Below, in pieces: positions 1,389 through 19,514 of a stretch of 53,275 nucleotides of DNA. Numbering within the stretch: the first letter of the stretch is position 1; every line of letters starts with the position of its first letter. This stretch comes from Phormidesmis priestleyi BC1401 (GTDB lineage: Bacteria; Cyanobacteriota; Cyanobacteriia; Leptolyngbyales; Leptolyngbyaceae): positions 1-53,275 of the forward strand of contig NZ_LXYR01000036.1 of the NCBI RefSeq assembly GCF_001650195.1, in the 5' to 3' direction. The notes beneath the pieces were generated by a model. That model was not told the DNA's origin. It saw nothing but the letters and a program-made list of their open reading frames with translations, and searched no databases. Made by a program: the position numbers and the translations under genes.

Positions 1389-1490
1389 CTTCTAGGGTTC
1401 CGGTTTAGCCAAGCTAAACGTCTGGTCCGAGAGAAGCAACCGTTTTTTAATCAGACGGTCACACGGCGGGAAAAAAGCCCGGGAGAGCCA
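1389..1490 (+). promoter_or_regulatory. guanidine-I riboswitch (ykkC-yxkD class) aptamer
   Basis: The leader of the DUF1989/carboxylase operon carries the hallmark conserved segments of the ykkC guanidine-I riboswitch in order: CTAGGGTTCCGG (1392-1403), CTGGTCCGAGAG (1422-1433), and ACACGGCGGGA followed by AAAAGCCCGGGAGA (1461-1486). The class binds guanidinium and switches expression on. Its position, 64 bases before the first start codon and followed by a terminator that uses the aptamer's own 3' strand, fits a transcriptional ON switch. It identifies guanidine, rather than urea, as the probable substrate of the genes downstream. Confidence 0.92.
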
Positions 1491-1529
1491 GAGGGCAGTC
1501 ATTGACTGTCGGCGGCTTCCTGGGCTTTT
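1473..1529 (+). terminator. riboswitch expression-platform terminator
   Basis: AAAAGCCCGGGAGAGCC (1473-1489), which includes the aptamer's last conserved strand, can pair with GGCTTCCTGGGCTTTT (1514-1529) across about 16 base pairs with one G-U pair and one bulged base. An inner hairpin CAGTC-ATT-GACTG sits in the loop. The stem ends in four U. Ligand-bound aptamer would hold the left arm and prevent terminator formation. The pairing is visible directly; the regulatory logic follows from the riboswitch class. Confidence 0.7.
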
Positions 1530-1553
1530 GCCATTTATTGCAAGGAGTGAATT

Positions 1554-2279
1554 ATGTCTACCGCACAAACAACCGAGCATTCTTTAGAAATTGATCCCAC
1601 GCTGATTTTGTGGGATGAAATCATTCCCGGCGGGGCTTATTGGTCGCGAGTGATTCAGCGCGGCACCACTCTACGGATTGTCGATTTAGAAGGGTCGAGA
1701 GGGCTTTCGATGCTGTGCTATAACGCCGATAATGGGGTCGAACGATATAACGCCGCCGATACCGCAAAAATTCAGTTCAATGCGTTCCTAAAAAAAGGGA
1801 TGGTGCTCTATTCCGACATGGGGCGCGTGTTGTTCTCATTGACCGAAGATACTTGTGGACATCACGACACTTTAGCGGGATGCAGTAATGTTGCCACCAA
1901 TGCCGCGAAGTATGGCGATGATAGCCGCAACTCTCGCGACAATTTCTTACTTGCCTTGACGAAGCGAAATATGGGCAAAAAAGACATCATGCCGAATCTG
2001 AATCTGTTTTCTCAAGTGGCGATCGAGCCAGATGGCTCAATGACTTGGGTAGAAGGTGCTTCTCAAGCAGGCTGTTTTGTCGATTTGCGTGCTGAGATGA
2101 ATGTTTTAGCGATTCTCTCAAACTGTCCCCATGTGCTTGATCCCGTTACAGCTTACGATCCTAAACCCATTCGCGTGGTTGTTTGGAAATCACCCGCGCC
2201 GGGGGCTGATGATCTGTGCCGAACGGCATCACCAGAGGCGATTCGCGGATTTCAAAATACTGATGCTTTGTTTATTTAA
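1554..2279 (+). CDS. DUF1989 protein, carboxyguanidine deiminase subunit (urea amidolyase-associated protein 1 type)
   Basis: 241 residues of the DUF1989 family, long annotated as urea amidolyase-associated protein. Family work links the paired DUF1989 proteins in ykkC operons to a heteromeric carboxyguanidine deiminase (CgdAB), which releases ammonia from carboxyguanidine to give allophanate. Seen here: the fold motif LRIVDLEGSRGLSMLCYNA (residues about 41-59), the conserved metal/active-site block EDTCGHHDT (about residue 100), and RDNFLLAL further on. AAGGAG at 1542-1547 sits well for the ATG at 1554. The gene is first in the operon and is followed after 26 bases by its paralogue. Which paralogue is CgdA and which CgdB I cannot settle from sequence alone. 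Confidence 0.85.
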   Translation: MSTAQTTEHSLEIDPTLILWDEIIPGGAYWSRVIQRGTTLRIVDLEGSRGLSMLCYNADNGVERYNAADTAKIQFNAFLKKGMVLYSDMGRVLFSLTEDTCGHHDTLAGCSNVATNAAKYGDDSRNSRDNFLLALTKRNMGKKDIMPNLNLFSQVAIEPDGSMTWVEGASQAGCFVDLRAEMNVLAILSNCPHVLDPVTAYDPKPIRVVVWKSPAPGADDLCRTASPEAIRGFQNTDALFI

Positions 2280-2305
2280 TTTATTGAGATCGAGAGGAGT
2301 ACATC

Positions 2306-2947
2306 ATGGTTTCAACGACACAATCTGAATTAGATTCTAAGTTAGCCGTTTATGATCAGGTTCTCGCCGCCCGCAAGCCGTGGGCACAGGTGATCAAAAA
2401 AGGTCAAACCCTGCGAATTGTCGATTTGGGAGGCAATCAAGCCGTCGATTTTTTGGTCTATAACGCCGATGATCCGAGTGAGCGATATAGCGCACCTGAC
2501 ACGATTCGGATGCAGGGAAACATCTTTATTACAACGGGAACAAAACTCTATTCTAACGATGGAAACGCGCTGATGACGGTAGTTAAAGACACGTGCGGAA
2601 AGCATGATACATCAGGCGGAGCGTGCAGTTGTGAAAGCAATTCGGTGCGGTTTGGACTAGATAAAAAGTGGCAGCACGCCTGCGTCGAAAATTTTCTCTA
2701 TGCCCTCAAAGATTATGGAATGGGCAAACGGGATATGACGAGCAACATCAATTTCTTTATGAATGTGCCTGTTAGCAAAGACGGTACGTTAGAAATTGTC
2801 GATGGCATTTCTGATCCCGGTAGCATTGTCGATTTATACGCTGAGATGAATGCACTGGTGGTCATTTCTAATTGTCCGCAGATGAACAACCCGTGTAACG
2901 CTTACAATCCGACTCCGATTCAATTGCTGATCTGGGATGCGCTTTAG
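2306..2947 (+). CDS. DUF1989 protein, second carboxyguanidine deiminase subunit (urea amidolyase-associated protein 2 type)
   Basis: 213 residues, paralogous to the gene just upstream: LRIVDLGGNQAVDFLVYNADD aligns with the same region of its neighbour, followed by VVKDTCGKHDTSGGACSCESN. It differs by the extra cysteines after HDT, as expected for the second member of the pair. A good Shine-Dalgarno (GAGAGGAG at 2290-2297) precedes the ATG. The two proteins are expected to form one heteromeric enzyme in the cytoplasm. The carboxylase start lies 24 bases downstream, so the three genes form one transcription unit. Confidence 0.85.
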   Translation: MVSTTQSELDSKLAVYDQVLAARKPWAQVIKKGQTLRIVDLGGNQAVDFLVYNADDPSERYSAPDTIRMQGNIFITTGTKLYSNDGNALMTVVKDTCGKHDTSGGACSCESNSVRFGLDKKWQHACVENFLYALKDYGMGKRDMTSNINFFMNVPVSKDGTLEIVDGISDPGSIVDLYAEMNALVVISNCPQMNNPCNAYNPTPIQLLIWDAL

Positions 2948-2971
2948 CTACTGTTCTCCTAACCATTCACC

Positions 2972-5900
2972 ATGTTCGATAAAGTTTTGGTTGCCAACCG
3001 GGGCGAGATTGCCTGCCGCATTATTCGCACCCTCGATCGTCTTAATATCGCATCCGTTGCCGTTTATTCTGAAGCCGATGCAAATGCCCGTCATGTGGCG
3101 ATGGCGGGTGAAGCTGTGGAGATTGGAACCGCGATCGCTGCCGATAGCTATTTGCGCTGGGAGCGGATTCTAGAGGCGGCACAGCAAACAGGTGCTCAAG
3201 CGATTCATCCGGGGTATGGTTTTTTGAGTGAGAACGCTGAGTTTGCGGAAGCCTGCGCTGCTGCAAATATCGTGTTTATCGGTCCGACTCCTGATCAGAT
3301 GCGACGATTTGGGCTGAAGCACACGGCGCGAGAGTTGGCATCTCAGCATCAAGTGCCATTGCTGCCGGGGAGTCCGCTTTTGGGGAGTTTGGAAGAAGCG
3401 CAGATTGCGGCAAGTACGATCGGGTATCCCGTCATGCTCAAAAGCACCGCAGGAGGTGGCGGAATTGGGCTACAGCTTTGTCGAACTGAGGACGCACTGC
3501 CAGAATTATTTCAGACCGTTCAGCGTTTGAGTCAGAATAATTTTGGTCAGAGTGGGGTGTATTTAGAGAAATATGTCGATCGTGCCCGACATCTAGAAGT
3601 GCAGATTTTTGGTGACGGTAAAGGCAACGTAATTGCCCTCGGTGAGCGAGATTGTTCAATTCAGCGTCGCAATCAAAAAGTGATCGAAGAAACTCCGGCA
3701 CCGGGAATCAGCGATCGTCTGCGTCACAATTTAGCAGAAGCGGCGGTGAGACTGGGTAAGGCAATCAATTATCAGTCAGCAGGCACCGTTGAGTTTGTGT
3801 TGGATGCTACGACCAATGAGTTTTATTTTTTGGAGGTCAACACTCGCTTACAGGTTGAACATGGCATCACCGAAGAGGTAACCGGAGTTGATTTGGTTGA
3901 ATGGATGGTTCGACTAGCGGCGGATGATTTATTTCCGTTAGAGGAGTATCAACATCAGCCTCAAGGACATTCGATTCAGGTCAGAATTTACGCCGAAGAT
4001 CCTGGTAAAAACTTTCAGCCAAGTTCTGGGCTATTGACAGAGGTGGTGTTTCCCGATTCTGTCCGGTGTGATACGTGGGTCGATCGCGGCACTGAAGTTA
4101 CGCCCTTTTATGATCCACTGATTGCGAAGGTGATTGTGAAAGGAACTAATCGCGAAGACACGATCGAGCAATTAAAATCAGCGCTCGATGAATGTAAAAT
4201 TGCAGGATTGGAATGTAATCTAGATTATCTGAGACAAATCTTAGATGACGAGACTTATAATGCTGGTGGTATTAGTACGCGATTTCTAGATTCGTTTCAC
4301 TATGCAGCGAGTACGATCGACGTTCTAGACCCTGGAACCTTCAGCACGATTCAAGACTATCCGGGACGCACAGGATATTGGAATGTTGGGGTGCCTCCAT
4401 CGGGGGCAATGGATCAGTTGGCATTCCGGCTAGCGAATCGGTTGGTGGGCAACTCGTCGGATGCCGCAGGGCTAGAGTTTACGGTGTCAGGTCCGACGCT
4501 GCGGTTTAACACCGATGCAGTGATCTGCCTGACGGGGGCGGCGATGAATGCCACGATCGACGATCGTCCCGTTTCTTTTTGGGCAGCAGTTTCGGTTTCA
4601 GCAGGGAGTACTTTAAAGCTCAAATCCATTCAAGGAGACGGCTGTAGAACTTATCTCGCGGTGCAAAACGGATTCAAAATCCCCGATTATCTGGGCAGCA
4701 AATCAACCTTTACGCTGGGGCAATTTGGCGGACACTGCGGACGGACTCTTCGCACCGGAGACGTGCTGAAATTACATCATGCTGAATTGAACCGTGAGCC
4801 GCGATCGCTGCCCCCCAATCTGATTCCACGCTATACCAACACCTGGGAAATTAAAGTCATTTACGGTCCGCACGGTGCACCAGATTTCTTTACAGACGCG
4901 GACATTCAGACTTTTTTTGCAACCGATTGGGAAGTTCATTACAATTCCTCTCGAACCGGGGTTCGGTTGATTGGTCCGAAGCCTCAGTGGGCACGAACAG
5001 ACGGCGGTGAGGCGGGGCTACATCCCTCGAATATTCACGATAATGCCTATGCGATCGGAACCATCGATTTCACGGGAGATATGCCTGTGATTTTGGGTCC
5101 TGATGGTCCGAGCTTAGGCGGATTCGTCTGCCCTGCTACGATCGTGCAGGCTGATCTCTGGAAAGTAGGACAACTTAAGCCAGGAGACACGATTCGGTTT
5201 TGCCCGTTAACGTTTGCGGAAGCGCTTCAAAAAGAACTGATTCAAGATCAAGAGATCGACACGCTACAAAAAAATCTACAGTCTCAAGATAATAACCAAT
5301 CAAATTTAATAACGATAAACCAATCAAATCGAGCAACGCTTTATGAGATTCCTGAAACGCCAGATCAAATCGCAGTGACTTATCGCCCATCAGGAGATAA
5401 ATATCTTCTGGTTGAATATGGTGAATTGGTATTGGATTTGAATTTGAGATTCCGAGTTCATGCGTTGATGAATTGGCTACAGTCCAACTTGCTACCAGGA
5501 ATTTTAGAATTAACACCCGGAATCCGATCGCTCCAAGTTCACTACGATAGTCGCATTTTGCCGTTAGCAGAGTTACTAGAAACGCTGATTGCGGCTGAAG
5601 GAGAGCTACCTGCGATCGAGGATATGGAAGTCCCAACGCGAATCATTCATCTCCCGCTTTCGTGGGAAGACGAATCGACGTTATTGGCGATTCAAAAATA
5701 TATGCAGTCGGTGCGAAGTGATGCCCCGTGGTGTCCGAGCAATCTCGAATTTATTCGGCGAATCAACGGATTAGAGAGTATTGAACAGGTCAAAGAAATC
5801 GTCTTTAACGCCAGTTATCTCGTGATGGGATTGGGCGATGTCTATTTGGGGGCACCTGTCGCAACTCCGATCGATCCGCGTCATCGGTTGGTGACGACAA

Positions 5901-6604
5901 AATATAATCCTGCTCGCACCTGGACACCCGAAAATGCAGTCGGGATTGGCGGCGCTTATCTATGTGTCTACGGCATGGAAGGTCCGGGTGGCTATCAGTT
6001 TGTCGGTCGCACGGTGCAAATGTGGAATCGCTATCAACAAACGGCTGATTTTCAAGCAGGAAAACCGTGGCTGTTGCGCTTCTTCGATCAGATTCGGTTC
6101 TACCCCATGTCTGCCCCCGACCTGCTGAAGTATCGCGATGCGTTTATTCAAGGCAAGGTGAAATTGGAGATTCAGGAAGAAACCTTTAGTCTGAGACGCT
6201 ATAACGAGTTTTTACGATCGATATCCGACGAGACCACTGCTTTCAAAACAAAACAACAGGCGGCGTTTGAAGCAGAGCGCGATCGCTGGGCAGAACTCGA
6301 TCTTCAGGTCGAGACGGCGATCGAGCCTCCCGCAGCCGCGCCAGAGAGTGAGTTAGCGTTACCGCCCAACAGCGAGGTTGTGAGGGCGCATATCCCTGCT
6401 AATGTCTGGCAGATTGTGGTCGAGACAGGCGACGTGGTTGAGGTGGGCGATAAGCTCGTTGTGTTGGAGGCAATGAAAATGGAGATCGCGATCATTGCCC
6501 CTGTTGCAGGTACGATTCTGGATGTTCTATGCACCCAAGGACAATTGGTTTCAGTCGATCAGGTTTTATTTGTGATTCAAACTGAGGTGAATCTACTCGA
6601 CTAA
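2972..6604 (+). CDS. biotin-dependent urea/guanidine carboxylase
   Basis: 1210 residues. Domain order: biotin carboxylase with ATP-grasp fold (about 1-445; VLVANRGEIACRIIR at the start, GGGGIGLQL loop, ERDCSIQRRNQK), carboxyltransferase half related to KipA/AHS2 (about 450-770; PGTFSTIQDYPGRTG), carboxyltransferase half related to KipI/AHS1 (about 800-1040; VYGMEGPGGYQFVGRT), and a biotinyl domain with EAMKM, biotin lysine 1169. The reaction is ATP- and bicarbonate-dependent carboxylation of urea or guanidine. No allophanate hydrolase domain is fused, unlike fungal urea amidolyase. Because the operon is controlled by a guanidine riboswitch and contains the DUF1989 pair, I infer guanidine as substrate. 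No clear ribosome-binding site is visible, so translation may be coupled to the preceding gene. The allophanate hydrolase must be elsewhere. Confidence 0.93.
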   Translation: MFDKVLVANRGEIACRIIRTLDRLNIASVAVYSEADANARHVAMAGEAVEIGTAIAADSYLRWERILEAAQQTGAQAIHPGYGFLSENAEFAEACAAANIVFIGPTPDQMRRFGLKHTARELASQHQVPLLPGSPLLGSLEEAQIAASTIGYPVMLKSTAGGGGIGLQLCRTEDALPELFQTVQRLSQNNFGQSGVYLEKYVDRARHLEVQIFGDGKGNVIALGERDCSIQRRNQKVIEETPAPGISDRLRHNLAEAAVRLGKAINYQSAGTVEFVLDATTNEFYFLEVNTRLQVEHGITEEVTGVDLVEWMVRLAADDLFPLEEYQHQPQGHSIQVRIYAEDPGKNFQPSSGLLTEVVFPDSVRCDTWVDRGTEVTPFYDPLIAKVIVKGTNREDTIEQLKSALDECKIAGLECNLDYLRQILDDETYNAGGISTRFLDSFHYAASTIDVLDPGTFSTIQDYPGRTGYWNVGVPPSGAMDQLAFRLANRLVGNSSDAAGLEFTVSGPTLRFNTDAVICLTGAAMNATIDDRPVSFWAAVSVSAGSTLKLKSIQGDGCRTYLAVQNGFKIPDYLGSKSTFTLGQFGGHCGRTLRTGDVLKLHHAELNREPRSLPPNLIPRYTNTWEIKVIYGPHGAPDFFTDADIQTFFATDWEVHYNSSRTGVRLIGPKPQWARTDGGEAGLHPSNIHDNAYAIGTIDFTGDMPVILGPDGPSLGGFVCPATIVQADLWKVGQLKPGDTIRFCPLTFAEALQKELIQDQEIDTLQKNLQSQDNNQSNLITINQSNRATLYEIPETPDQIAVTYRPSGDKYLLVEYGELVLDLNLRFRVHALMNWLQSNLLPGILELTPGIRSLQVHYDSRILPLAELLETLIAAEGELPAIEDMEVPTRIIHLPLSWEDESTLLAIQKYMQSVRSDAPWCPSNLEFIRRINGLESIEQVKEIVFNASYLVMGLGDVYLGAPVATPIDPRHRLVTTKYNPARTWTPENAVGIGGAYLCVYGMEGPGGYQFVGRTVQMWNRYQQTADFQAGKPWLLRFFDQIRFYPMSAPDLLKYRDAFIQGKVKLEIQEETFSLRRYNEFLRSISDETTAFKTKQQAAFEAERDRWAELDLQVETAIEPPAAAPESELALPPNSEVVRAHIPANVWQIVVETGDVVEVGDKLVVLEAMKMEIAIIAPVAGTILDVLCTQGQLVSVDQVLFVIQTEVNLLD

Positions 6605-6713: not shown

Positions 6714-8765
6714 TCAAGAGACCCCGGCTGCTTTTAGTGCCAGCGTAAAAACTATCTTTGCTGCTTCGCTTACTGTTGTTTCACTGGCTTTGTTTGCCAT
6801 TGCTTTGCCCCACAGCACTAATTTTCCCATCATGGTAGGATTTACTTCTGCTTGCTTTGCTATACCATCGGCGACCTGTTGCTGAGAGTCTTCGACAGTC
6901 ACGCCCTGATTTTGAAGCTGTTGAAGTAAGTCTTGAATTTGTTGAGCCGCTTGCGTCAGGTCTTGGCTCATGTTGATGTAGTTGCCCTGGATGTAATCAC
7001 GATCGATTCGCTCGTTGTAATTACCGCTTCCCATGTGGATGTTTCGATCTCCCATTGATTGACTCTCCGCTGTTGCAGTTATGTTGATAGGTCTACTAGC
7101 TTCGTGTTTAGCAATCTCCATTATATCTGCGCTTTTTTGTTTGTAGATCTCAATCTCTCGATCCTTTGCCTGCAACTCTACTCGGTAGAGTTTTTCTTGG
7201 AACTGAAGTTGCATCTCATAACGCTCTTTGAACCCGCTTTCGATCGCAACTTTATCCGCTCCTGCTAGCACTTCTAAGCGAATTATGAATGCACCACCAC
7301 TTTTCTTTTCAAGTGCTTGGATAGAAAGGTTATCATCTTCATACTCAGCCTGTAATTCCTGAAATGAGGCAAAAAAGGCTTTCCAGTCAATACCATCAGC
7401 AAAGATGAGGTCAACGGTTTCGAGGGCTTTTTGAAATAGAGCAGTGAACTCTCTAGGTTTGAAACTACCGCTACTAGGGCGACGTTCTTGCTGGTTCTGT
7501 TTCAAATAAACATACTCACAAATCACGCCATCTAGTTTGGTTTTACTGTTAGTGTTCCAGTCTTCTAGACAGGCTCCGGTCAATGTTGCACCTGTGAAGT
7601 TAGTGGCTAGCGCCTGGGTTCGAGTAAAATCTGCTCCACTCAGATTAGCATTGCTGAGATTCATGCCATTCAGGTTTCCATCACTTAGGTTAGCGCTATG
7701 CAAATCAGCATCACTGAAGTCCATTCGGCTGAGGTCTAAATCCTTTAACTCGTAGATGTCTATTTCGCTGAGGTTTACACCCCTGAAGTCTATTCCGCTG
7801 AAGTCTAATTCCCTAAGATTTATATCACTGAAGTCTATCTCGCTGAGGTCTATCTTGCTGAGGTTTACACCCCTAAGTTTTACACCCCGGAGGTCGATAC
7901 TGCTAAGGTCTACTCTGCTAAATTTGTCACCGCTGAGGTCTATTCCACTCAGATTGGCACTGCTAAGGTCTATCCCACTAAGGTCGACGTTGCTGGGGTC
8001 TATCCCACTAAGGTTGGCATCGCTAAGGTTAGCACCTTCGAGATCGGCGCTGCTAAGGTCAGCATTACTAAGGTTAGCGCCTTCGAGATCAGCGCTGCTA
8101 AGGTCAGCATTACTAAGGTTAGAACCTTCGAGATCAGCCTTGCTGAGGTTGGCATACTTAAGATTGGCACTGCTAAGGTCAGCACCACTCAGATTGGCAC
8201 TGCTAAGGTCAGCACTGATGAGATTAGAACCACTGAGGTCAGCACCACTCAGATTGGCACTGCTAAGGTCAGCACCAATGAAGCCAGAACCACTGAGGTT
8301 AGCACCATTTAAGTTAGCCTCGCTAAGGCTGGCATTGCCAAGGTCAACCATGCTAAGGTCAGCATTGCTAAGGTCAGCACCTTCGAGATCAGCCTTGCTG
8401 AGGTTGGCATACTTAAGATTGGCACTGCTAAGGTCAGCACCACTCAGATTGGCACTGCTAAGGTTAGCATTGATGAGATTAGAACCACTGAGGTCAGCAT
8501 TGCTAAGGTCAGCACCTTCGAGATCAGCATTGCTGAGGTTGGCATATTTAAGATTGGCATTGCTAAGGTCAGCACCACTCAGATTAGCACCTCCGAGGTC
8601 AACACTAATGAGGTTAGAACCACTCAGGTTGGCATCTTCGAGATCAGCGCCAATAGAGTTGGCACATTCAAGATTGGAACCTTCATTACTAGAAAATTCT
8701 TGTCTCCACTGATTCCAAATTTCCACCCCTTGTCTTAGCAAATCTAACTGTTCCTGTTTCGCCAC
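6714..8765 (-). CDS. large pentapeptide-repeat protein with C-terminal cyanobacterial tail domain
   Basis: 683 residues. A short helical start (KQEQLDLLRQGVEIWNQW) is followed by about 340 residues of A(D/N)LSxA pentapeptides, which fold as a right-handed quadrilateral beta helix. The repeats shift towards DLSGI/DFSGI in the second half, then GADFTRTQALATNFTGATLTGACLEDW closes the solenoid. A helical region with a coiled coil follows, then a glycine/asparagine stretch (GDRNIHMGSGNYNE) and a conserved-looking tail (GKLVLWGKAMANKASETTVSEAAKIVF). Similar tails occur in other cyanobacterial proteins of unknown role (family knowledge, not checked). No signal peptide is visible. DNA gyrase mimicry, known for Qnr proteins, should not be assumed. 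Internal units are nearly identical at DNA level, so the repeat number may vary between strains. Confidence 0.88.
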   Translation of the reverse strand: MAKQEQLDLLRQGVEIWNQWRQEFSSNEGSNLECANSIGADLEDANLSGSNLISVDLGGANLSGADLSNANLKYANLSNADLEGADLSNADLSGSNLINANLSSANLSGADLSSANLKYANLSKADLEGADLSNADLSMVDLGNASLSEANLNGANLSGSGFIGADLSSANLSGADLSGSNLISADLSSANLSGADLSSANLKYANLSKADLEGSNLSNADLSSADLEGANLSNADLSSADLEGANLSDANLSGIDPSNVDLSGIDLSSANLSGIDLSGDKFSRVDLSSIDLRGVKLRGVNLSKIDLSEIDFSDINLRELDFSGIDFRGVNLSEIDIYELKDLDLSRMDFSDADLHSANLSDGNLNGMNLSNANLSGADFTRTQALATNFTGATLTGACLEDWNTNSKTKLDGVICEYVYLKQNQQERRPSSGSFKPREFTALFQKALETVDLIFADGIDWKAFFASFQELQAEYEDDNLSIQALEKKSGGAFIIRLEVLAGADKVAIESGFKERYEMQLQFQEKLYRVELQAKDREIEIYKQKSADIMEIAKHEASRPINITATAESQSMGDRNIHMGSGNYNERIDRDYIQGNYINMSQDLTQAAQQIQDLLQQLQNQGVTVEDSQQQVADGIAKQAEVNPTMMGKLVLWGKAMANKASETTVSEAAKIVFTLALKAAGVS
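8124..8590 (-). repeat. recent internal duplications within the pentapeptide gene
   Basis: A unit of about 90 bases beginning ACCTTCGAGATCAGCCTTGC occurs at 8124-8213 and again at 8380-8469 with almost no differences. A third, slightly more divergent copy starts near 8517. In protein terms the block KADLEG...SSANLKYANLS is repeated. The near-identity of codons shows duplication at DNA level rather than convergent repeat structure. Confidence 0.7.
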
Positions 8766-17218: not shown

Positions 17219-19514
17219 ATGTCGCAAAACTCAAAACCGTCTGGTTTTAGCATTAGCAGCCTTGCAATCCGGCAACACATCGGCACGTTGATGCTGACTT
17301 TAGCCGTGATTGCGATCGGCATCTTTTTTATCCTCAATCTTCAGGTTGATTTGCTGCCTTCCATTACCTACCCTCGCATCGGCGTGCGGGTCAATGTTCC
17401 AGGCATCTCCCCCGAAGTGGCGATCGATGAAGTCACTAGACCGCTCGAAGCAGCCCTTTCAGCAACCGAAGGGGTTGTGCAGGTCTACTCTCAGACGCGA
17501 GAGGGGCAGGTGAACATCGACTTATATTTTGAGCCAGGGGGCAACATTGACCAAGCGCTGAACGATGCCACGGCTGCCTTTAACCGGGCACAGTCAAATC
17601 TGCCCGATGTCGTCGAAGCCCCGCGCCTGTTTAAAGTTGATCCATCACAGCTTCCCGTATATGAGCTGGCGATCACGTCTCCGTCCCTAAAGGATGTTGA
17701 CCTGCGGGTGTTTGCTGACGAAGAGCTATCGCGTGAACTCGGAGTGGTTCCAGGGGTTGCGTCTGTAGACATTGCAGGTGGAGTCCCTGAAGAAGTGCGA
17801 GTCGTGTTAGACCTCAACCGTCTTCAATCTCTGGGGATTGGCATCAACGAAGTTCTCACCGAGCTAGAGGAAGCGAATCAAGATGTTTCTGGAGGACGAA
17901 TTCTCGGTGATCTGACTGAGCCACTGACACGAGTTATCGGACGGTTTCGGAATGCCGATGAGATTCGCAACCTCTCTTTTAGAGTTGCAACTGCTGCGCC
18001 AGCGATCGCAGGGGCTGAATCGAGTCGCCCCGTTTCCGCTGCCCGTCGAGTCTATTTGCGCGATTTTGCTCAGGTGGTCGATGGAACCGAAGATCAACGC
18101 ATTTTCGTCTTGTTAAACAAGCAGCCTGCGGTCAAAGTCAGCATTCAAAAACAGCCAGATGCAAACACGATCGCAGTCGTAGAAGCGGTGAAACGGCGCA
18201 TCGAAGAGTTGAGACGAGCAGGAGCCATTCCAAACGACATGGAGTTGACATCAACTCTGGATGAGTCGGTGTTCATTCAAGAATCGCTAAACAGTGTGAC
18301 AGATGCCGCGCTTTCTGGTGCTGTTCTGGCTGCGCTCGCTGTGCTGCTGTTTTTGGGGTCTCTGCGGCAAACGCTGATCATTAGTTTGACCATTCCCCTC
18401 TGCACACTGGCAGCTGCGATCGCCATGAAGCTCTGCGGATTTTCGCTCAACGTCTTTACGCTGGCGGGGCTGGCAATCAGCGTCGGGCAGGCGGTGGACA
18501 CCTCAGTCGTGGTTTTAGAAAACATCAATAAGCGATCGGCTGAAGTAGGCGGATCTTCCTCTATTGACCGCAATGGGCAGACTCGCCAAGCTGCGATCGA
18601 CTTAGTAGAAGAAAGCAGTCGAGAGGTAGAATCTTCGCTGGTCGCGGCAACTGGGGGCAACCTGGTATCAGTGCTGCCATTTTTGCTGATTGGCGGCTTC
18701 ATCTCTCTACTCTTTAACGAATTGATTCTGACGATTTGCTTTGCAGTTGCCGCATCGCTGCTGGTTGCCGTTACGGTGGTGCCGATGCTTTCGTCTCTGT
18801 TGATTACGATTCGCTGGTCGAGTCGAATCGATCGGTTCTGGCTGTTGAGAGAATTTAATCGGCGGTTTGAGGGCGCAACTCATCAATATGCCAGAGTATT
18901 AAGACGAGTCGTAGGTCGTCGATTTCTGGTTTTGGCAGTCACCTTTGTGGTGTTTGGTGGCAGCATTCTTAGTGTTTGTGGTCATGGCAGTGCAATACAA
19001 TTCGCTGGTCGATCCGCTAGTGATTATGTTGACCCTACCGCTAGCACTGGCAGGCGGCATTTGGGGGCTGTTTTTTACACAAACCGCGATCGGAGCGACG
19101 GTGATTGTCGGAGCGGTGCTGCTAGTTGGAATTGTGGTCAACAATGCCATCATTATGGTCGAGACCGCGAACCAGATTCGGGAAGAGGAGGGAGTCGATC
19201 GTCGAACTGCCATTTTGGAAGCGGCTCCCCAGCGACTTCGCCCTATTTTGATGACAACCGTTACAACTGTTCTAGGAATATTTCCCCTCGCCTTGGGTCT
19301 GGGGCAGGGCGGAGAGTTTTTACAACCGTTAGGAATCGTGGTCTTTTCAGGATTGTCGTTAGCGACTCTGTTGACGCTGTTTATTATTCCCTGTTCTTAT
19401 CTACTGCTGCATGATCTATTTGGTTGGCGACGAGGCAAAAAAATAGACGCGATCGAGCCGTCTCCCACGTTAGAAAAAGATCCTTCCGACGACCCAGTTT
19501 CCCTACGAAAGTAA
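17219..19514 (+). pseudogene. RND efflux pump gene with a large internal deletion and frameshift
   Basis: The first 580 or so residues form the intact N-terminal half of an AcrB-type pump: TM1 (TLMLTLAVIAIGIFFIL), first periplasmic loop, TM2-TM6 with VGQAVDTSVVVLEN, and the start of TM7 (FLVLAVTFVVFGGS). At about 18945-18975 the frame jumps by one and continues as AAFLVFVVMAVQYNSL through the end, the last transmembrane helices of the family. The second periplasmic loop, roughly 280-300 residues, is missing. Total coding length is about 765 residues against about 1040 expected. Both the lost porter domain and the frameshift predict no function. Confidence 0.9.

Follow-up and report, generated by a model that had tools for sequence, protein, structure and literature searches.

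How does a cyanobacterium that appears equipped to carboxylate guanidine deal with the allophanate so formed, when the textbook last enzyme of the pathway is missing? The question is raised by an operon of Phormidesmis priestleyi BC1401 in which a guanidine-I riboswitch precedes two DUF1989 genes and a biotin-dependent carboxylase. It lies on contig NZ_LXYR01000036.1 (C36 in our numbering), analysed here as one stretch of 53,275 nucleotides (the window) and belonging to a 5.55-Mb assembly of 213 contigs with a completeness of 99.99%. The operon very probably represents the known, guanidine-inducible guanidine carboxylase/carboxyguanidine deiminase operon, as far as activities and regulation can be predicted from sequence. 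Its chemistry is known; the newer point is that the variant described here is devoid of an allophanate hydrolase (AtzF) scoring over the curated cut-off.

Identity and predicted regulation of the operon

The only Rfam match of the whole window at the gathering threshold is the guanidine-I aptamer RF00442, which at 94.9 bits clears the gathering score of 63 bits and lies within a few bases of the leader that the initial annotation had placed at 1389-1490 (Table 1). The UAAP1 gene begins 66 bases past the aptamer end. UAAP1, UAAP2 and the carboxylase all exceed the curated cut-offs of their families (TIGR03425, TIGR03424 and TIGR02712), which bears out the gene set proposed earlier. Two adjacent DUF1989 subunits over cut-off form the arrangement by which carboxyguanidine deiminase is recognised, and UAAP1 and UAAP2 are thus candidate subunits of this enzyme; they are also the only DUF1989 genes of the assembly. 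The carboxylase comprises biotin carboxylase, carboxyltransferase and biotin domains, with the biotin lysine motif near residue 1169. A domain scan detected no allophanate hydrolase domain fused to it, and the neighbouring open reading frames (ORFs) agree with the earlier statement that the hydrolase is neither fused nor adjacent.

The hairpin at 1463-1535 (−39.9 kcal/mol, z −5.03, with 0 of 200 shuffled sequences equally stable on RNA folding) is predicted from folding to be a transcription terminator that competes with the aptamer. Together with the established riboswitch class, this suggests transcriptional ON control by guanidine. Two observations weigh against the terminator role: just four U residues follow the hairpin, and a terminator pattern scan of the plus strand did not list it.

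A second guanidine-I site (C22:55030-55155, 82 bits) displays the same hairpin design with a longer U run, and is located 100 bases upstream of an NMT1/SsuA-type binding-protein gene. ABC ATPase and permease genes lie nearby and, farther out, a gene resembling type III glutamine synthetase (L018, 4847-10263); relatives of the genes of this transporter locus adjoin the carboxylase in Drouetiella (L024). The ABC transporter behind the second riboswitch is therefore a likely guanidine importer. Guanidine would bind the aptamer of the operon leader, the competing hairpin (~1474-1529) would then fail to form, and transcription would enter the operon. The carboxylase would carboxylate guanidine at the expense of ATP, and the DUF1989 subunits would deiminate carboxyguanidine to allophanate and ammonia.

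Guanidine versus urea as substrate of the carboxylase

On alignment to the urea amidolyase of K. lactis (5i8i), Asp699 of the window carboxylase aligns with Asn1330, and Asp956 aligns with Asp1584, so that the second diagnostic aspartate is kept. In the available text of PMC11410670, guanidine carboxylase is called by Asp at both of these positions, and the available part of PMC12186494 likewise gives an Asp/Asn rule separating guanidine from urea carboxylases. The Asn at position 1330 that marks a strict urea carboxylase is not present in the window protein. Its assignment as a guanidine carboxylase by the published residue rule is well supported at the level of sequence, and the reannotation that had been argued from the riboswitch now finds agreement in the active site.

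Among the best 80 named carboxylase loci of a longer list, 79 are of the Asp type, the Alcanivorax locus (L092) being the one Asn; within the same 80, the carboxylase closest to that of the window, at 89% identity, comes from Phormidesmis priestleyi ULC007 (Leptolyngbyaceae). An evenly drawn sample of 386 cyanobacterial genomes, searched for TIGR02712 at E 1e-200 or better, yielded ten carboxylases, of which only that of G338 (L151) carries Asn. No DUF1989 match was obtained in the stretches of these two Asn-type carboxylases, which thus serve as an internal control for the residue rule, and no guanidine-I riboswitch was found in L151. Guanidine-I sites are present in 14 of the 18 cyanobacterial carboxylase-related stretches scanned and were not found in L024, L065, L147 and L151; the genome of L147 has a separate DUF1989 locus (L148) that does carry one. 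The first value of the operon is therefore in the reannotation of cyanobacterial 'urea carboxylases', as nine of the ten in the sample carry the guanidine-type Asp. As a separate observation, seven Asp-type carboxylases of the genus g158 (L242, L243, L244, L245, L248, L251 and L255) are without DUF1989 in their 1.5-kb flanks.

Search for allophanate hydrolase and the gene row on contig C1

A profile search of the whole assembly with TIGR02713 (AtzF) gave no match over the 511-bit cut-off, extending to the genome what had been claimed for the locus. The score is highest, at 222 bits, for an amidase on C55, which appears to be a GatA by its score in the AtzE/GatA range, followed by 198 bits for an AtzE on C1 and 120 bits for an amidase on C30. 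The initial annotation had proposed that the pathway is completed elsewhere or ends at allophanate. Completion by an AtzF over cut-off elsewhere in the assembly does not stand; other candidate parts do exist, namely urease (alpha subunit on C61, 996 bits), an AtzE-AtzG pair and a stand-alone AH_C protein. A single arginase-family gene occurs in the genome, on C9.

On contig C1, behind aroQ, genes for the stand-alone AH_C, AtzG and AtzE follow in a row, and the AtzG stop overlaps the AtzE start. An AtzE that exceeds its cut-off and has AtzG as its neighbour, the arrangement by which AtzEG is recognised, is thus found here. The order AH_C-AtzG-AtzE recurs in G386, G391 and G392. A formamidase-like gene and one for BiuH, which at 409 bits passes its cut-off of 370, lie about 4 kb past AtzE. 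The C1 AH_C scores 105 bits to TIGR02713. All 21 of the C1-type AH_C proteins aligned are devoid of the GAHL histidine (K. lactis His492), which we take to be important in the C-domain of AtzF, and show NGTLM instead. The C1 AtzE and AH_C were also considered as a plain split AtzF; this was rejected, the amidase being of the AtzE type by its 747 bits to PRK09201 and the AH_C being without the histidine. A second type of stand-alone AH_C is encoded on C24 (L019, 6413-6814; PF21986, 98.7 bits), where it adjoins ORFs that by eye resemble hydantoin racemase and allantoinase.

AtzF and C1-type AH_C across carboxylase-bearing cyanobacteria

The TIGR02713 search was applied to 21 genome labels, ten from the sample of 386 and 11 behind the best-80 named loci; G185 and G388 have identical coordinates and were counted once, leaving 20 distinct genomes. 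AtzF over cut-off was detected in nine of these (G060, G085, G099, G185, G241, G278, G336, G338 and G393), including G338 with its Asn-type carboxylase, and was not found in 11 (G000, G129, G386, G387, G389, G390, G391, G392, G394, G395 and G396). Because the named genomes were picked as close relatives of the query, the 11 of 20 cannot be extrapolated to the phylum; of the ten genomes from the evenly drawn sample, eight have AtzF and two (the P. priestleyi BC1401 genome and G129) do not. A good share of carboxylase-bearing cyanobacteria thus appears to be without the textbook last enzyme. Where AtzF is present, it is often a two-gene enzyme: six of the nine genomes (L141, L142, L143, L148, L149 and L151) encode amidase and AH_C in an ORF each, and the other three have them fused. 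The AtzF of G185 is listed as one 650-aa frame, but stop codons separate its parts when the sequence is translated directly.

The C1-type AH_C occurs in 10 of the 11 AtzF-less genomes, the nine others being 62-88% identical to the P. priestleyi protein, and none was seen in the nine AtzF genomes. Extra AH_C matches in G060, G185 and G336 (43-61 bits) resemble the C24 type, by score only. The remaining AtzF-less genome, G395, gives no TIGR02713 match of any kind. Any cyanobacterium is expected to give at least a GatA match, and G395 is therefore taken as incomplete.

A direct linkage of AH_C to the carboxylase is seen in G396 (L082), where AH_C is the next gene, with 3 bases between stop and start. 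The operon is headed there by a guanidine-I site (1654-1786), the carboxylase is split over two ORFs in that assembly, and no AtzE match was obtained in the stretch. In an order survey, which found the carboxylase in 22 of 42 genomes and covered flanks of at most 1.5 kb, the C1-type AH_C lies beside the carboxylase only in L256; by contig number and coordinates this is the L082 genome again, so that the linkage is that of one genome.

The carboxylase tree offers three independent contrasts between AtzF and C1-type AH_C, all in the expected direction, which is suggestive only. For this test G395 was unlabelled and G338 was entered as an AtzF row. Another four rows, three of them proteobacterial and the fourth L092, had been assigned to AtzF without being searched with TIGR02713; they contributed to the group table only and lie outside the contrasts. 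The L092 stretch shows no AtzF gene.

Fate of allophanate

The completion that we prefer, on an inference that is plausible though short of probable, is that allophanate would lose CO2 to give urea, either spontaneously or aided by the stand-alone C1 AH_C, and that urease would then free the last two nitrogens. Allophanate forms urea and CO2 under physiological conditions, according to the available text of PMC6219798. Urease is encoded in 17 of the 20 carboxylase genomes, including P. priestleyi BC1401 and the AtzF-less genomes throughout (11 of 11), which is compatible with the urea route. Several points call for caution. The presence of urease lends weak support, since urease is common (ureABC in 264 of 308 cyanobacteria, in the available text of PMC6737895) and occurs in six of the nine AtzF genomes as well. 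The sign test on the three tree contrasts gives a p of 0.25, the AtzF histidine is replaced throughout the aligned C1-type AH_C proteins, and an assembly in 213 contigs leaves some room for an AtzF in a gap.

The main rival in the P. priestleyi genome itself is the direct hydrolysis of allophanate by AH_C, AtzG and AtzE together, as a non-orthologous replacement of AtzF. This seems doubtful, as does the corresponding proposal that AtzE, which cleaves the terminal amide of 1-carboxybiuret, would act likewise on that of allophanate, with AH_C handling the product. The row of the three genes and its recurrence in three relatives, the similarity of AtzE to PRK09201 and to the AtzE structure 6c62 (498 bits), and the C1-type AH_C in 10 of the 11 AtzF-less genomes all suggest such a joint function. 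On the other hand, AtzE accompanies AH_C in only six of those ten genomes and was not found in the other four; the cut-off of TIGR02713 is not reached, and AH_C is without the histidine of the AtzF domain. AtzE is also present in 56 of the 373 sampled cyanobacteria that have no C1-type AH_C, which indicates other roles for it, and AtzE has few of its substrate-binding residues in common with AtzF, according to the available text of PMC7948467.

Hydrolysis by some other amidase, such as that on C30, or by an AtzF lying in an assembly gap is improbable. The number of contigs and the TIGR02713 matches of the C30 and C55 amidase-family genes would allow it, but these matches fall far under the cut-off, the C55 protein resembles GatA, the completeness of the assembly is high, and the relative G386 is likewise without AtzF. 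It is quite improbable that the operon is purely detoxifying and ends at unassimilated allophanate or urea. Guanidine is toxic to cyanobacteria, as stated in the available text of PMC8390497, and the absence of an AtzF over cut-off from the assembly would fit such a role; yet allophanate yields urea in any case (PMC6219798, available text), urease is present, and the guanidine-I site upstream of the binding-protein gene suggests uptake. A genuine urea carboxylase, with a riboswitch that reflects guanidine stress alone, is very improbable, because the family name of the carboxylase and a lack of AtzF that favours neither substrate are outweighed by Asp in place of Asn at the diagnostic position, by the riboswitch and DUF1989 pair sharing the operon, and by a urease that would make urea carboxylation redundant.

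Relatives of the C1-type AH_C

The C1-type AH_C occurs in 13 of the 386 sampled cyanobacteria, 11 of them among the 376 without the carboxylase. Two of these 11, G346 and G193, resemble Pseudanabaena genomes in AH_C and its neighbours, and its presence in Pseudanabaena may reflect lineage alone. Of the 13 genomes, 8 have a BiuH relative in the 10-20 kb stretch that holds AH_C, and in six of these eight the stretch also includes a second BiuH-like hydrolase (43-49%). In Drouetiella (G387, L226) this second hydrolase is directly upstream of AH_C. In the available text of PMC7948467, TrtA is a co-occurring homologue of BiuH with about 50% identity. TrtB, the carboxybiuret decarboxylase, is a conceivable identity for the C1-type AH_C. 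As a general partner of this AH_C, AtzE was tried and rejected: of the 13 sampled genomes that encode the protein, 6 have an AtzE over cut-off, and so do 56 of the 373 that do not encode it.

The solved structure nearest to the C1 AH_C is 5c5z (154 bits), presumably that of protein c4763, and the AH_C-type protein of E. coli CFT073 matches the letters of 5c5z shown, when compared by eye. In CFT073 its gene stands in a row (L260, 10439-16403) with those for carbamate kinase, DUF1116, FdrA, DUF2877 and a BiuH-like cysteine hydrolase, the last being 57-59% identical to the second cyanobacterial hydrolase. FdrA, DUF1116 and DUF2877 were not among the matches listed for the cyanobacterial stretches searched. 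Judged by the similarity of its neighbours, the C1-type AH_C is thus placed among ureide genes in two phyla. We put forward, as a speculation that is on the whole unlikely, that the C1-type (5c5z-type) AH_C could be an uncharacterised allophanate enzyme, most simply a urea-forming decarboxylase, which with urease would recurrently replace AtzF and whose relatives would serve triuret- or biuret-like clusters in other cyanobacteria and E. coli. This family of small proteins, for which a structure is available, follows the absence of AtzF, and the fate of allophanate without AtzF thereby becomes a testable question.

Flanking genes

The divergent biotin-protein ligase gene (Table 1) is possibly linked to the operon through biotinylation of the carboxylase. 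Of 17 longer carboxylase loci from cyanobacteria, 7 include a BirA-like gene, in varying orientation; these are the window and, among 16 others, L025, L029, L141, L143, L145 and L147. None was found in L028, L033 and L041, in the 20 short loci L239-L258, or in 69 non-cyanobacterial loci searched with a cyanobacterial query. Downstream, a 318-aa ORF at 7756-8712 is antisense to the pentapeptide-repeat-like ORF and, judged by eye, probably owes its existence to the repeats. Further along, the final part of an RND-type efflux ORF (17219-19414) appears by eye to be out of frame, a possible frameshift or pseudogene.

Table 1. Features of the window (C36) and of the gene row on contig C1
Feature	Contig	Position	Strand	Length	Evidence
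Guanidine-I riboswitch aptamer, RF00442	C36	1381-1487	+		cmscan 94.9 bits, E 5e-16, model 1-107 (full length)
Putative expression platform	C36	1463-1535	+		Hairpin using aptamer 3' strand, then TTTT at 1526-1529
DUF1989 protein UAAP1	C36	1554-2279	+		TIGR03425 310 bits (cut-off 206); PF09347 204 bits
DUF1989 protein UAAP2	C36	2306-2947	+		TIGR03424 345 bits (cut-off 285); PF09347 230 bits
Predicted guanidine carboxylase (family name urea carboxylase)	C36	2972-6604	+	1210 aa	TIGR02712 full length, 1910 bits (cut-off 1304)
Biotin-protein ligase, divergent	C36	458-1249	-		TIGR00121 141 bits, over cut-off
Pentapeptide-repeat-like ORF, downstream of operon	C36	6714-8765	-		Read by eye
Stand-alone AH_C	C1			137 aa	PF21986 140 bits
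AtzG	C1			61 aa	PF13318 78.6 bits
AtzE	C1			462 aa	PRK09201 747 bits (cut-off 461); 498 bits to AtzE structure 6c62

Comparison with known systems

A survey of 308 cyanobacteria reported the carboxylase in 19 strains, the hydrolase in 13 and both in nine, and read them as urea metabolism; the word 'guanidine' is absent from its main text in the form available (PMC6737895). A literature search by titles and abstracts, with most subscription papers outside its scope, yielded no AtzF-less guanidine carboxylase pathway in cyanobacteria. Substitution of AtzF is as an idea already in print, another amidohydrolase having been proposed for it in ammonia-oxidising archaea in the available text of PMC12625717.

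The operon resembles the gca, cgdAB and atzF operons of Vreelandella boliviensis (PMC12508155) and Pseudomonas syringae (PMC11410670), as far as these are described in the available texts, in its guanidine-I riboswitch, its Asp-type carboxylase and its DUF1989 pair, and the P. priestleyi genome shares with those systems an ABC transporter, here a likely importer. It differs from them in that atzF is present neither in the operon nor, over cut-off, in the genome, and in that the transporter genes lie on a different contig, behind a riboswitch of their own.

Like AtzF, which joins amidase and AH_C domains, contig C1 encodes a PF21986 AH_C and an amidase-signature protein near each other; unlike AtzF, the amidase is of the AtzE type and the AH_C stands alone, without the GAHL histidine. 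The adjacent genes with overlapping stop and start recall AtzG-AtzE of cyanuric acid catabolism as given in the available text of PMC6219798, from which the C1 pair differs by the AH_C beside it. The C1 AH_C shares its NGTLM motif with the 'allophanate hydrolase-related protein' of E. coli CFT073 (PDB 5c5z), whereas the latter is encoded in the gene row of L260 described above and not beside a guanidine operon.

A cyanobacterial parallel in outcome is the guanidinase route of Synechocystis, which in the available text of PMC8390497 employs a different enzyme and no ATP; in both organisms, if the preferred completion holds in P. priestleyi, the use of guanidine would reach urea and then urease.

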